Shown: piece by piece, positions 49,960 through 56,325 of the stretch
Layout of the letters: each line of letters starts with the position of its first letter
How positions within the stretch are numbered: the stretch's first letter is position 1
Origin: an uncultured Clostridia bacterium
GTDB lineage: Bacteria; Bacillota; Clostridia; Saccharofermentanales; Saccharofermentanaceae
NCBI GenBank assembly: GCA_947303185.1
Contig: CAMYXF010000002.1
Location: 181,747 to 245,746 of the forward strand
Reading direction: 5' to 3'
DNA: 64,000 bases
Notes under the pieces: model-generated
What the model was told of the DNA's origin: nothing
Database searches by the model: none
Seen by the model: only the letters and a program-made list of their open reading frames with translations
Position numbers and translations under genes: made by a program

Positions 49960-51828
49960 TTAGTTATTGGACTTGATCAACTTATCGAAGTTCTTGCCGT
50001 TAACGTCATACATTGTGTGACCGAGCTCGGCAAGGCGGCTCTCGATATGTTCCTGCTCCTTGGGACGCTTGATCTTAAGCGTCGTTGTCTTGATCATGTC
50101 TTCTTCGGAGAAGACATAGTTACGTACTATCTTGTACTGAGGCATCTTGTGGTTAGCCTCATGCATCTTATCGTTGAGATATGTCTCGATCTGGCTGTCG
50201 TCAGCTTCTGTTGCAAGGCCGAGCTCAGCGCCGATTACCTTACGGTTGATGAGGAGCTTAGCGCAGATGTCGATTGCTTCACGGTCATTCTTGTTGCCCC
50301 AGACGAATGCCTCGGATACACCCTTGATCTCGGTAATGACTGCCTCGATCTCTTCAGGGAATGCCTTCTTACCGTTTGTAAGAACGATCATGGACTTAAC
50401 ACGGCCCGTAATGTGGATGGAACCTGTCTTGTCGATATAACCCATGTCGCCTGTATGGAACCAGCCCTCTTCGTCGATGGCTTCCTTTGTAGCTTCATCA
50501 TTCTCGTAGTAACCGAGCATGACGCAATCGGACTTTGTAAGGATCTCACCTACTGCCTTAGGTCCTGTGCCTTCAGCATCTATGGCAACCGTAATGCCTG
50601 CCATCGGGCGTCCTACTGAACCGTGAACGTCGCAAACCTCAGTATTAACGGAGATAACCGGTGATGTCTCGGTAAGTCCGTAACCCATATAGAACTGGAG
50701 ACCGAAGTCTGTGAATGCGTCGATATACTTCTTGTCGATTCCGGCACCGCCGATGACGATCATACGGAAGTTGCCGCCGAGCTTATCAAGGATATCCTTG
50801 AATACGTTGCGTCTTACGTCGATACCGCACTTCTTAAGGAATCTGGTAACAGGTCTTGCGATCGCAATGATCCTTTCCTTGCCCGAAGCCTTGATACCGT
50901 CTTCGATCTTCTCGTAGATGTTCTCGAAAAGAAGCGGAACGGAAATACATACATCCGGCTTCCACTCTTCCATGTTCTTGACGATGTATCTCAAGCCGTC
51001 GCACATACAGATGCACGCACCGCAGGAGAGGATGAAGAAGTCGCATGTATTTTCGAAAGTATGATGCAAAGGCAGGATTGAGAACGCTCTGTCTCCCCTT
51101 CTTACATCAAGTGTCTGTGAAATCGCATATACGTTTGAAACGATATTCTTGTGAGAGAGCAAAACGCCCTTACTCATTGAAGTCGTTCCCGAAGTAAAGA
51201 GAATGATCTTAGCTGCTTCAGTATCGATCGGAGTATCCATGAACTTGGTATCTCCGGCCTCAAGGTACTTATTACCCTCTTTAATGAGGTCATAGATATC
51301 AGCGAAACGGTCATCGTCCTCAGGCCATGTATCGTCCTTCGTCTTACCGGAAAGACCATCCTTATAGAAAATAACGAACTTATTAAGCGGAATGTCGAGC
51401 TCGCCTGACTTGATCTTCTCAGCGATGGAAAGCATCATCTTGTGATGTCTGTGATGGTAGAAAATAAGGCGTGATCTTGATCTTACAAGGAGCTGGATGA
51501 GCTCGTCTTCAGGAAGCGCTCTGTCCAAAGGCACGCCAACGGCATTAGATGACAGGATCGCATTATAAGAAACGAACCACTCGTAAGCATTCTCACCTAC
51601 TACGGCAAGACGCTCACCTGCATATTCACTGTTAAGGATATAAGTTCCAAGACCCTTGATATCGTTCCCGTACTCGAAAAAGCTTCTGTGAACCTCGGAA
51701 AGCTTCGGGGAACGTCTGAAGATAAAAGCATCAAGTTCGGAGTACTTTGCACAGGTTTGAACAACCAGATCTCTTAAGTCATTAAACTTCTCAGCTGTAA
51801 AGACAGGCGTACCCTGTACAGGATTCAT
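49960..51828 (-). CDS. AMP-binding long-chain acyl-CoA ligase-like protein (start trimmed to MNPVQGTP)
   Basis: 'IILFTSGTTSMSKGVLLSHKNI', 'YMGYGLTETSPVISVN', 'GWFHTGDMGYIDKTGSIHITGR'; GGAGG RBS before ATG at 51828. Confidence 0.92.
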   Translation of the reverse strand: MNPVQGTPVFTAEKFNDLRDLVVQTCAKYSELDAFIFRRSPKLSEVHRSFFEYGNDIKGLGTYILNSEYAGERLAVVGENAYEWFVSYNAILSSNAVGVPLDRALPEDELIQLLVRSRSRLIFYHHRHHKMMLSIAEKIKSGELDIPLNKFVIFYKDGLSGKTKDDTWPEDDDRFADIYDLIKEGNKYLEAGDTKFMDTPIDTEAAKIILFTSGTTSMSKGVLLSHKNIVSNVYAISQTLDVRRGDRAFSILPLHHTFENTCDFFILSCGACICMCDGLRYIVKNMEEWKPDVCISVPLLFENIYEKIEDGIKASGKERIIAIARPVTRFLKKCGIDVRRNVFKDILDKLGGNFRMIVIGGAGIDKKYIDAFTDFGLQFYMGYGLTETSPVISVNTEVCDVHGSVGRPMAGITVAIDAEGTGPKAVGEILTKSDCVMLGYYENDEATKEAIDEEGWFHTGDMGYIDKTGSIHITGRVKSMIVLTNGKKAFPEEIEAVITEIKGVSEAFVWGNKNDREAIDICAKLLINRKVIGAELGLATEADDSQIETYLNDKMHEANHKMPQYKIVRNYVFSEEDMIKTTTLKIKRPKEQEHIESRLAELGHTMYDVNGKNFDKLIKSNN

Positions 51829-51986
51829 ACTATTACCTCCACCGTCCATGCACCCCACTTTTCGTGAAAGCATGAATAACTAAAAAAATATATCATACTT
51901 GATAACAAAAACGCAATAATTCGCTAAATTACTATTTATGAGTATAATATGTGCGTATTTAAGACAGAAACTATTCAGGAGATTAT

Positions 51987-52760
51987 ATGTCTGAAGAGAA
52001 TATTAAGACCGAAGATACTGTAAAACAGGCCTCTGAGCCTGCCATGTCAAAAGCAGATCACCATAAGCATCTGGACGAGAAGTATCCTACCAAAAGAGGT
52101 TTTTGGGACGTAGTAGCCAAAAACGGATTCCTCATCCTGACCCACATCCTCTGCGACATGAAATGTATCGGCAGAGAGAATTTCCCCAAGCAGAACCCCT
52201 ACGTTGTCGCATCCAACCACCAGAGTTACCCCGACGGCGTTCTTATCATCGACTATCTCCCTAAGGGACACTTCAAATACATGTGCTGCCTTGCAGCTTC
52301 CGACCTTGAGACCAACCACGGCAAACTCGGCCGTCTCATCATGAGAGTCGGCAGAGGCATCGCAGTCGACCGCTACGGCAACCCCGTCAGAGGTCTCATC
52401 AAGGCCAAGAAAGAAGTCGAGAAAGGCAACATCTGCTTCGTCTTCCCTGAAGGCACCCGTTCCCACACCGGCAAGCTCGCCGAGATGAAGGACGGCGCCG
52501 CTTATCTCGCCATCAAGGCCGGCGTTCCCATGGTTCCAGTCTACATCGCAGGCGCTTACCAGATCTGGCCCAGAACATCCAAGAAGCCCCACCCGCTCAA
52601 CGGTCTCCACCGCCGCAAGATCAGAATCTACGTCGGCGAGCCCCTCCACGGCGAAGACTTCGACAACGACGCTCACAAGATGACCGAAGCCCTCTCCGCC
52701 TGGATGCACCAGCAGGAAGACCTCCACTGGGATCCCGAGACAAACTACGAGTCGAAGTAA
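51987..52760 (+). CDS. plsC: 1-acyl-sn-glycerol-3-phosphate acyltransferase
   Basis: 'VASNHQSYPDGVLI' (NHX4D) and 'VFPEGTRSHTGKL'. Confidence 0.9.
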   Translation: MSEENIKTEDTVKQASEPAMSKADHHKHLDEKYPTKRGFWDVVAKNGFLILTHILCDMKCIGRENFPKQNPYVVASNHQSYPDGVLIIDYLPKGHFKYMCCLAASDLETNHGKLGRLIMRVGRGIAVDRYGNPVRGLIKAKKEVEKGNICFVFPEGTRSHTGKLAEMKDGAAYLAIKAGVPMVPVYIAGAYQIWPRTSKKPHPLNGLHRRKIRIYVGEPLHGEDFDNDAHKMTEALSAWMHQQEDLHWDPETNYESK

Positions 52761-53107: not shown

Positions 53108-53208
53108 ATACCGTCCCAAACGCGAAAATCCCAATTGGGACGGTATCCCACACAACTCCCACTCAAACAAATACCGTCCCAAACGGCAAAACTCCATTTG
53201 GGACGGTA
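53108..53208. repeat. Hairpin array E: two copies of TACCGTCCCAA-N15-TTGGGACGGTA
   Basis: Copies 53109-53145 and 53172-53208, period 63 bp, loops 15 nt. Confidence 0.93.
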
Positions 53209-53236
53209 CGGACAAACAAAACAACAAATAAATCTA

Positions 53237-55897
53237 TCAGCTATACAACCCGCCCAGATACTCCGTAGCGAACTGGATCTTTGTCGGGTTGAAGACATCC
53301 CTGCTCTCTTCGGTCGGATAGATGAAGAACGTGTCGTCGTAGGTGGACAAGGTGACGCAGGGGCCGAACTTGCCGCGGTAATCGTATTCGGTGTGGAGCG
53401 ATACCATTGACTTGGCCGGGAACTTCAATGTCTCGTGCTTTTCGGACCTGTAATTGTCGAACTCCAGAGAGAAGCCTTCGTTATCCTGGATCAACCTGCC
53501 GACGCCGCAGTCGACAAAGTTTACGGAATTAGGCAATGCCTCTACCCTTACCGGGATATCCAGCTTATAACGGCCTTCCCTAATCTCTTCGTGGACAAAG
53601 CCTCTCTGCCACTCGTACCAGTCAGGAATGTGGATGACTTCGCCGGTTAACGAATGAAGCTGACCAAGCTCATCCATCTCGTAAGTGTCGCCGCAGTGCT
53701 TGCAGCAGATTTTGTTGCCGTAGGAAGTCATGGCGAAATCCTTGCCGCACTTTCTGCACTTGTACAACGGGAAATGAAGGCCTTCTGCTCTCCACTCGTC
53801 GTCGATGACGATCTTGTTTTCGAGCTGGTACTTGTATTCGTCGTAAGTGAGTTCTTTGGAGATGCGCTCGAGAATCTCATCAACGGAGAGCTTACCAACC
53901 TCATCAGCAGTTACCACGCACTTAAGGTCGGCGTGAAGCCTTGCGCCTTTGCGTTCCTTGAGGTTCCAGATGGGCTGCTGGAGATAGTTGCCCTGCATGT
54001 TGAGAGTTACGACGGGTACCTTGAGCATCTTGGCAAGCTTGGCGATGGAAGGCGTCAGGTGCGAGTTGGTGCCGACGTTCGCGTATCTTGCTTCAGGATA
54101 GATGACCATGATGTCGCCACGCTTGATTACCCTGGCGATGTTGCGGATCAGGGACTGGTCGTTGATGAACTTACGGGTGCCGAGGCAGCCTGCCTGGCGG
54201 TATATCCATTCGCCGAAGTTTTCGAAGCCTTCAAGCTCTGAAATGTAGTTAGCACGGTAAGGCTTTAGAGCCAGCGGAGTTACATAGAAATCCATAAAGG
54301 AGTTATGAGATCCGTATACCAGGAACGGCGGCTTGATGCCTTCCATGTTGTGCTTGTCGATCTTGAGCTTATAAGGAGATACGGTCATCTTGCAAAGGAG
54401 CCACATCAGAGGCAGGAAAAAGAGATTCTGCCTGGGCGGTACCTTTGCCCTGTCAAAAGGTCGCTTGTCAGGGCTTGCGTATGTATCTCTTCTTATGTAA
54501 CGGCGGATGCCGGGAATCTTGCTGAGGAGCAGATAAAGAACGCCCGTAAAGATAAAGGATGCCAGCGTAGGTGTCAGCATGAACAGTATCTTGTTGTGAA
54601 CGATTCCCTGGATAGGATCGTAAATAACAAGCGTGAATCCGAAGCCAAGCGCAAGGCAGATGATGCCTACGATATTAAAGCCCTTGGAATACTGGTAAGC
54701 ATTGTGGCCGGGCAATTCATATGCACTCTTAAGATCGAGCTTCTGTTTTCTGATAAGGAAGAAGTCCACGAAAAGCAGTGCCGCGAGAGGAGCATAAACG
54801 CATGCGCCGATAGTAAGGAAGCTGCCGAAGTATTCGGTGATCTTGCCCCATACGCAGAGGAGCGCAACGTACACACCCAACACAAGAACAAGAGTCTTAT
54901 ATGAGATCTTCTTGAATGTTGATTTGAGCATTACGCCGTATATGTAAGAGCCGACAGCCTGTGTTCCGATGTTTGCAAAAGCAACGAGGAGCAAAGAAGA
55001 CAGACCAAGGATCGGTGCTGACAATGTAGCCATCATGAGAGTAGGATCGTCTACCATCTGACCTGTTACATACTGCATTGCGATTGCCATGACTGCGCCG
55101 ACTACTACGAAGAAAGAGCCTGCTGCACCCTGTCCGAGAACGCCTGCGTAGTAACCCGATTTCTCAGATTTACAAAGACGCGGAACTTCCGCCATGCCTC
55201 CGACGAGCGTTATAACAAACGCGAAGTTCGCTTCGATCGTAAGAACGTAATTGACCGTCTTGTCTGCATCGCCTGCAAGCTCTGGCTGGTAGTTCCAGAT
55301 AACATCCATAGGTACGGATGTGAAGCCTACTACGACTACTGCCACGCCGACCAATAACAATAAAGGAACGAGTATACGTGTTGTCCATGTGATAGTGCCG
55401 ACGCCGCGCAAAGCGATGATGGTGCCAACGACTACGCACGATAAACTCAGTACGAGGTGTGCCCCGTTAAACAGCTGTATTCCGAACAGTCCAAGAAGGT
55501 TTTCCATCGAGTCTGCGAAAAGTTCGCAACACACTGCGTACCAGGGGAAGTTTACGAGGATGATTATTATCGTAACTATCTTGTTGCCCTTGGGTCCGAA
55601 CACGCTTCGAAGCCATATCCAGATATCGATACCGTATCTTACCGACAAGATTACCGGAAGCTGGTATACCATCAGCATGAATATTGCTGCGAGGAATGCT
55701 CCGATCAGGAGCTGTTTAAAACCGACTAATGTTGCGAGATAAGAGCCCTGGGTGTAACTCCATGTGGCGATGCAGTATCCCGATAAGACGAGAAGCGCAT
55801 CCATGAATCCGTATTTTCGCTCTTTGGGGAGAACGGGTAAAGTACCGCAGTAAACCTCGTTCTCGATTTCTTTGTTGACATCATGTTTATGACTCAC
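53237..55897 (-). CDS. Fusion: NCS1-type nucleobase/cation symporter + PlsC-like acyltransferase + Cys4 zinc-ribbon-like region
   Basis: N-terminal ~470 aa multi-TM CodB/NCS1-like 'MDALLVLSGYCIATWSYTQGSYLATLVGFKQLLIGAF'; C-terminal 'YGSHNSFMDFYVTPLALKPY' (HX4D), 'MVIYPEARYANVGTNSHLTPSIAKLAKMLKVPVV', 'CRKCGKDFAMTSYGNKICCKHCGD'. Confidence 0.85.
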   Translation of the reverse strand: MSHKHDVNKEIENEVYCGTLPVLPKERKYGFMDALLVLSGYCIATWSYTQGSYLATLVGFKQLLIGAFLAAIFMLMVYQLPVILSVRYGIDIWIWLRSVFGPKGNKIVTIIIILVNFPWYAVCCELFADSMENLLGLFGIQLFNGAHLVLSLSCVVVGTIIALRGVGTITWTTRILVPLLLLVGVAVVVVGFTSVPMDVIWNYQPELAGDADKTVNYVLTIEANFAFVITLVGGMAEVPRLCKSEKSGYYAGVLGQGAAGSFFVVVGAVMAIAMQYVTGQMVDDPTLMMATLSAPILGLSSLLLVAFANIGTQAVGSYIYGVMLKSTFKKISYKTLVLVLGVYVALLCVWGKITEYFGSFLTIGACVYAPLAALLFVDFFLIRKQKLDLKSAYELPGHNAYQYSKGFNIVGIICLALGFGFTLVIYDPIQGIVHNKILFMLTPTLASFIFTGVLYLLLSKIPGIRRYIRRDTYASPDKRPFDRAKVPPRQNLFFLPLMWLLCKMTVSPYKLKIDKHNMEGIKPPFLVYGSHNSFMDFYVTPLALKPYRANYISELEGFENFGEWIYRQAGCLGTRKFINDQSLIRNIARVIKRGDIMVIYPEARYANVGTNSHLTPSIAKLAKMLKVPVVTLNMQGNYLQQPIWNLKERKGARLHADLKCVVTADEVGKLSVDEILERISKELTYDEYKYQLENKIVIDDEWRAEGLHFPLYKCRKCGKDFAMTSYGNKICCKHCGDTYEMDELGQLHSLTGEVIHIPDWYEWQRGFVHEEIREGRYKLDIPVRVEALPNSVNFVDCGVGRLIQDNEGFSLEFDNYRSEKHETLKFPAKSMVSLHTEYDYRGKFGPCVTLSTYDDTFFIYPTEESRDVFNPTKIQFATEYLGGLYS

Positions 55898-56049
55898 AGA
55901 AAGAACCCTCCTATTATTCCAAGAAGAGATACTACTGTTATTACTGCCGCAATGATGTAGTCTTTCTTTGTCATGCGGGGAATCGTGTTCTGCTTCTCCG
56001 CTTTGAGGATCTCGTCGATCCTCGACTCAATTTCATTTTCGCTATTCAT
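55894..56049 (-). CDS. 51-aa single-TM small protein MNSENEIESRIDEILKAEKQNTIPRMTKKDYIIAAVITVVSLLGIIGGFFL
   Basis: ATG with GGAGATATTT RBS; stop TGA overlaps GTG start of the fusion gene (GTGA). Confidence 0.75.
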   Translation of the reverse strand: MNSENEIESRIDEILKAEKQNTIPRMTKKDYIIAAVITVVSLLGIIGGFFL

Positions 56050-56145: not shown

Positions 56146-56325
56146 TTAAGTTCCAAGGTCCTGGACTTCTTCCGTGACCTGGTTGATAGCGCCCTGCCAA
56201 TCGTATTCCATAGCCTTGCCACCAAGCTTGACAGCGAACAGAACAATCGTAATAATGCCCAGAAAGCAAGCCAGAAAAAGGGCAATTCCACCTGTGATCA
56301 ATAATTTAATATCTTTCTTTTCCAT
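56146..56325 (-). CDS. 59-aa single-TM small protein MEKKDIKLLITGGIALFLACFLGIITIVLFAVKLGGKAMEYDWQGAINQVTEEVQDLGT
   Basis: GGGGAGGAC RBS overlapping the end of the upstream DUF1700-like gene. Confidence 0.75.
   Translation of the reverse strand: MEKKDIKLLITGGIALFLACFLGIITIVLFAVKLGGKAMEYDWQGAINQVTEEVQDLGT

Follow-up and report, generated by a model that had tools for sequence, protein, structure and literature searches.

In the window, the whole stretch of 64,000 nucleotides that was analyzed, a transporter of the NCS1 family and an acyltransferase (AT) of the PlsC fold are joined in a single polypeptide, and comparison of related loci shows that these two proteins and a small transmembrane (TM) protein form one conserved unit. 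Judged from sequence, this module may well be a coupled uptake-and-acylation unit, a reading that we prefer to the others and whose chances we place slightly short of even.

A single reading frame joins a transporter and an acyltransferase

As claimed in an earlier sequence-only reading of this DNA, the NCS1-acyltransferase chain is encoded by one uninterrupted open reading frame of 886 aa on the minus strand, which begins with GTG at 55897 and has its stop at 53237. The features of the locus are the following:

49960..51873, minus strand, AMP-binding acyl-CoA/ACP ligase-like gene (PF00501)
51987..52760, plus strand, stand-alone plsC-like gene, convergent (PF01553, 83.5 bits)
53171..53209, minus strand, terminator-like 16-bp stem directly 3' of the fusion stop (pattern match only)
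53237..55897, minus strand, NCS1-acyltransferase fusion CDS with GTG start (open frame and Pfam; fused homologues)
53243..53563, minus strand, C-terminal PH-like beta barrel and closing helix, residues 779-885 (AF2 secondary structure; Foldseek with modest scores)
53693..53758, minus strand, Cys4 zinc-ribbon-like element C714/C717/C732/C735 (Cys invariance)
53978..54367, minus strand, PlsC-fold AT core, residues 511-640 (PF01553; motifs; Foldseek match to 5kym)
54086-54100, minus strand, YPEAR motif in the AT core, residues 600-604
54290-54307, minus strand, HX4D motif H531-N-S-F-M-D536 in the AT core
54488..55897, minus strand, NCS1 transporter half, residues 1-470, with 12 predicted TM helices (PF02133; AF2 and Foldseek)
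55894..56049, minus strand, 51-aa protein with a single TM helix; its stop codon and the GTG start of the fusion overlap (GTGA)
56146..56325, minus strand, 59-aa small TM ORF between a HAAS gene and the module (tblastn matches in Saccharofermentans loci only)

Both Pfam domains score above their cut-offs, PF02133 (NCS1) on residues 21-424 (E 1.7e-16, 60.5 bits vs. a cut-off of 23.5) and PF01553 (acyltransferase) on residues 513-634 (E 3.5e-7, 30.5 bits vs. 23), and 12 TM helices are predicted, which bears out the initial assignment to an NCS1-like transporter and a PlsC-like acyltransferase. The HX4D sequence HNSFMD, the YPEAR motif and the Cys4 ribbon were likewise found where listed above, and the stand-alone plsC described as convergent does face the fusion.

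The fusion has both fused and two-gene relatives

The window belongs to a rumen genome that resembles Saccharofermentans. Nine genomes of the same genus contain the fusion at 89-97% identity and with no stops, and a tenth contains it at 71% identity in a different locus; altogether, fused frames are present in 31 Saccharofermentans genomes. A search for the same domain order in other genomes, covering the 80 best relatives in named genomes, gave 53 single-chain fusions and 27 two-gene loci, so that the relatives are not all encoded by two separate genes. Carrier and AT genes are adjacent in 26 of the 27 two-gene loci, and in the exception (L116) the AT lies 1.9 kb from the carrier. The carrier gene comes first in the two-gene loci and stop and start codons often overlap. 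Fused carriers were found in Saccharofermentans, many Lachnospiraceae, Acetivibrio mesophilus, Enterocloster asparagiformis and Pelethocola, and two-gene carriers in Ruminococcus, Ruminiclostridium, Pseudobacteroides cellulosolvens and a Treponemataceae MAG. The only split copy of its kind within Saccharofermentans occurs in one MAG (G070, L145:6302-8994), where a single frameshift divides the fusion, as assembled, at the linker. An assembly or frameshift artefact is ruled out by the recurrence of the same frame in the 31 genomes of the genus and in 53 of the 80 loci, and the fusion is real. No paper on an NCS1-acyltransferase fusion was found in a literature search, and a PHROGs search gave no match.

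The trees obtained from the two halves allow a simple history. In the NCS1 tree all fused rows lie on one side of a single branch (SH-aLRT 93 against a mark of 95); a single fusion event from a two-gene ancestor would therefore suffice, and in the AT tree the fused/split pattern requires one change. Distances of the carrier and AT halves correlate (r=0.87), as is expected for co-inherited genes. The sister group of the Saccharofermentans fusions contains, among others, many fusions from Lachnospiraceae, a pattern suggestive of horizontal transfer.

Conservation is highest in the transport core

The carrier half misses the cut-off of NCBIfam model TIGR00800 (ncs1) with 55.6 vs. 353.1 bits, and by its sequence it is placed outside the canonical TIGR00800 subfamily. 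A full-length AF2 model of the fusion reached a pLDDT of 85 and a pTM of 0.70, and as the latter value means moderate confidence, the interdomain geometry was not used. In Foldseek comparisons this model matched Mhp1 (4d1a; TMt 0.79) and CodB (7qoa; TMt 0.85). Residue W119 of the fusion presumably pairs with W117 of Mhp1, according to our reading of the alignment. In NCS1 proteins the N- and the C-terminus are both cytosolic, and the AT is thus placed at the inner face of the membrane; model and homology predict a LeuT-fold carrier of 12 TM helices whose C-terminus lies in the cytosol and bears the AT.

Among 60 aligned sequences, the invariant fraction is 83% in TM1, 57% in TM6 and 55% in TM8, vs. 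18% in both TM11 and TM12 (helix ranges were TM6 213-240, TM8 295-327, TM10 353-382, TM11 409-425 and TM12 443-459). The carrier half is also more conserved than the AT half, with 80 vs. 70% in fused rows and 68 vs. 58% in split rows. Since no other part is as well conserved as the transport core, a degenerate carrier is ruled out.

These values bear on the view that the NCS1 half mainly anchors the AT at the membrane or in a complex, with transport being unrelated to acylation. Enzymes of the AT fold act at membranes, the placement of the two domains relative to each other is only moderately confident, and in three Saccharofermentans genomes (G002, G073, G091) the AT occurs alone, all of which would suit a scaffold. 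Against a scaffold, the carrier half is more conserved than its enzyme and TM1 is far more invariant than TM11 and TM12; the carrier retains its small partner protein, split and solo ATs each possess a hydrophobic helix at the N-terminus, and split pairs remain adjacent although they are untethered. We therefore regard the scaffold as unlikely. The sequence-only reading had offered coupled uptake and lipidation, or membrane tethering, as the meaning of the fusion; the fusion and a functional linkage hold up in the 53 fused and 27 two-gene loci, whereas pure tethering has become less likely because of the conserved transport core, the small partner of the carrier and the hydrophobic helix of the unfused ATs.

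The acyltransferase half keeps its catalytic motifs

The AT half misses the cut-off of TIGR00530 (1-acyl-G3P acyltransferase) with 17.6 vs. 102.95 bits. Its model has a pLDDT of 88.9, and the best Foldseek match is PlsC from Thermotoga maritima (5kym). HX4D, YPEAR and all four Cys residues show no change in any of the 60 sequences, YPEAR taking the place of motif III EGTR, which is absent from all 60, and the four Cys are invariant also across the wider AT family (38 rows). The C-terminal PH-like barrel gave modest Foldseek scores with EVH1 2ifs (E 7e-4) and the OCRL PH domain 2kie (E 5e-3). As motifs and Cys4 residues are retained throughout and conservation peaks in the transport core, carrier and AT both look active.

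Alternatively, the AT together with the zinc ribbon and the PH-like tail might sense a membrane lipid and regulate the carrier, acylation of the cargo not being their purpose. Barrel and ribbon are indeed appended to the AT, and in other families LeuT-fold carriers are known with a soluble regulatory domain behind them. Yet the invariance of the catalytic HX4D and YPEAR motifs favors an enzyme, as does the existence of the AT without the carrier, and a sensor seems distinctly improbable.

Homologues of the AT half are present across most of the order. The genome to which the window belongs has 10 PF01553 matches, and further acyltransferases on C17, C6, C3 and C14 are 23-31% identical to the AT half. 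Of 40 genomes from the genus and order (that genome and 39 relatives), only 1 gave a match to PlsY (PF02660) and 4 gave one to PlsX (PF02504) above cut-off, so that the step with which phospholipid synthesis usually begins looks replaced.

A small TM protein accompanies the carrier

The 51-aa protein encoded directly upstream of the fusion had gone unmentioned in the sequence-only reading. A homologue of it, 50-60 aa long and with a single TM helix, is encoded just before the carrier in 78 of the 80 best relatives, fused or split, and the two loci in which it is missing (L069, L119) both begin at contig ends. Among 24 Saccharofermentans copies of this ORF, 2280, 1095 and 6808 differences fall on codon positions 1, 2 and 3, respectively, and this predominance of third-position changes marks the ORF as a gene that is translated and under selection. 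A similar small protein precedes the carrier in all five loci where the closest NCS1 relatives occur without an AT, and none was seen at three solo AT loci, so the small protein belongs with the carrier, probably as an accessory subunit. It matches no Pfam or NCBIfam family above cut-off. To our knowledge no subunit of an NCS1 carrier has been described so far, and the small TM protein could be the first.

Neighboring genes and sister carriers

The stand-alone plsC and the acyl ligase gene adjoin the module in 19 and 18 Saccharofermentans loci, respectively, and in none elsewhere; without conservation beyond Saccharofermentans, both are ruled out as members of the system. Beyond this genus the only neighbors conserved throughout are the parts of the module itself (small TM protein, carrier and AT), and the scattered histidine kinase, GGDEF-EAL and HTH genes look incidental.

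The closest NCS1 relatives that lack an AT are 43% identical to the carrier half (five cases: G005, G019, G074, G078, G334), and all five directly adjoin a gene for a cytidylyltransferase-choline kinase (LicC-LicA-like), its domains having been scanned in two loci and assigned by 41-42% identity in the other three. One such cluster (L142:292-8727) comprises the NCS1 carrier, the LicC-LicA-like gene, a PEP mutase-cytidylyltransferase, a TPP enzyme and an Fe-alcohol dehydrogenase, and is probably involved in phosphonate/choline surface decoration. The LicC-LicA-like genes beside the sister carriers, joined in one case by phosphonate-type genes, suggest that their cargo is an amino-alcohol. In its binding region the fused carrier has C123 (TM3) where the sisters have D, and several residues in TM6 and TM8 differ, so its cargo is likely related to that of the sisters but different. 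In the genome of the window (86% complete) no choline kinase was found above cut-off, and a literature search yielded no paper on an NCS1 carrier beside LicCA.

The neighborhood also touches on the idea that the NCS1 half flips lysophospholipid inward for re-acylation by the AT, as a functional analogue of LplT-Aas. The PlsC-like fold of the AT and the plsC and acyl ligase genes adjoining the module in Saccharofermentans would fit, and LplT and Aas are known as operon or fusion (PMC11416262). On the other side, the carrier is a LeuT-fold NCS1 protein and not an MFS protein, the sister carriers adjoin a choline-kinase-like gene and not lipid genes, and the chain lacks the ligase domain of Aas. 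NCS1 carriers, usually regarded as nucleobase carriers, move small polar solutes. A lysolipid flippase is thus quite improbable.

Proposed function of the module

In the coupled uptake-and-acylation reading, the cargo of the carrier would be a small polar alcohol or a headgroup, either resembling choline or being a glycerophospho-ester. At the inner membrane face, the AT would use acyl-ACP or acyl-CoA to esterify the imported compound, or a lipid made from it, so that acylation would trap the compound in the membrane. We count in its favor that the sister carriers adjoin an enzyme that could trap their substrate, that the pairing recurs in fused and two-gene form and needs only one fusion event on the trees, that no neighbors other than the module's parts are conserved throughout beyond Saccharofermentans, that the distances of the two halves co-vary, that both halves look active and that LplT-Aas, with an unrelated carrier, offers a precedent for operon and fusion of a carrier and an acyltransferase. 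Against it we count that we know of no NCS1 protein that transports lipids or glycerophosphodiesters, that the binding-region residues differ from those of the choline-kinase-linked sisters, and that in five Saccharofermentans genomes the AT occurs with no NCS1 gene of this branch (G002, G073, G091 (78%); G013, G089 (44%)); the solo AT of G002 nests within the fused clade of the AT tree, so the enzyme is able to function in the absence of the carrier. Conversely, each complete NCS1 gene of the branch in Saccharofermentans carries or adjoins an AT (31 fused and the frameshifted G070), the one in G094 being cut by a contig end, and no carrier of the branch without an AT was seen within the genus.

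A narrower proposal, possible but doubtful, is a lipid-salvage machine in which the NCS1 carrier and its small TM subunit would pass a headgroup or glycerophospho-ester directly to the attached AT. If so, uptake and the first lipid-forming step would lie within one chain, an undescribed class. With coupling of this kind, carrier-plus-acyltransferase systems would no longer be confined to MFS flippases but would include the NCS1 family, and rumen and gut Clostridia would have a direct route from external headgroups to lipid. The module forms a natural series, as one chain or two and with or without the enzyme, which makes the reading testable, and it occurs in the named isolates A. mesophilus, E. 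asparagiformis and P. cellulosolvens.

Comparison with known systems

Mhp1 and CodB share the predicted fold of the fusion carrier, as the TMt values of 0.79-0.85 indicate, but are only 16-19% identical to it; the fusion does not reach the TIGR00800 cut-off and adds a C-terminal enzyme and a small partner protein. T. maritima PlsC has the acyltransferase core fold and HX4D in common with the fusion AT, which differs in having YPEAR where the usual motif is FPEGTR, in its ribbon and PH-like tail, and in scoring below the TIGR00530 cut-off. The Lic-1 system (LicB, LicA, LicC) resembles the sister loci in combining a carrier with a trapping enzyme, here an NCS1 protein beside a LicC-LicA-like fusion; however, the sister carrier is not LicB, and no kinase accompanies the fused NCS1-AT.

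The closest parallel in arrangement is LplT-Aas, whose carrier and PlsC-type acyltransferase are encoded side by side or, depending on the species, as a fusion, one protein with both being reported for Aggregatibacter actinomycetemcomitans (PMC10434233), and in which acylation takes place at the cytosolic face, where model and topology also place the AT of the fusion. In contrast, LplT is an MFS carrier, whereas the fusion carrier is of the NCS1/LeuT fold (PF02133); the LplT-Aas enzyme has an acyl-ACP synthetase domain, whereas the fusion chain has no AMP-binding domain; and the fusion has a Cys4 ribbon and a PH-like domain in addition, as well as the small TM protein as its partner. Because of these differences in carrier fold, synthetase domain and additional domains, the module is not classed as an LplT-Aas system, although it may work like one.
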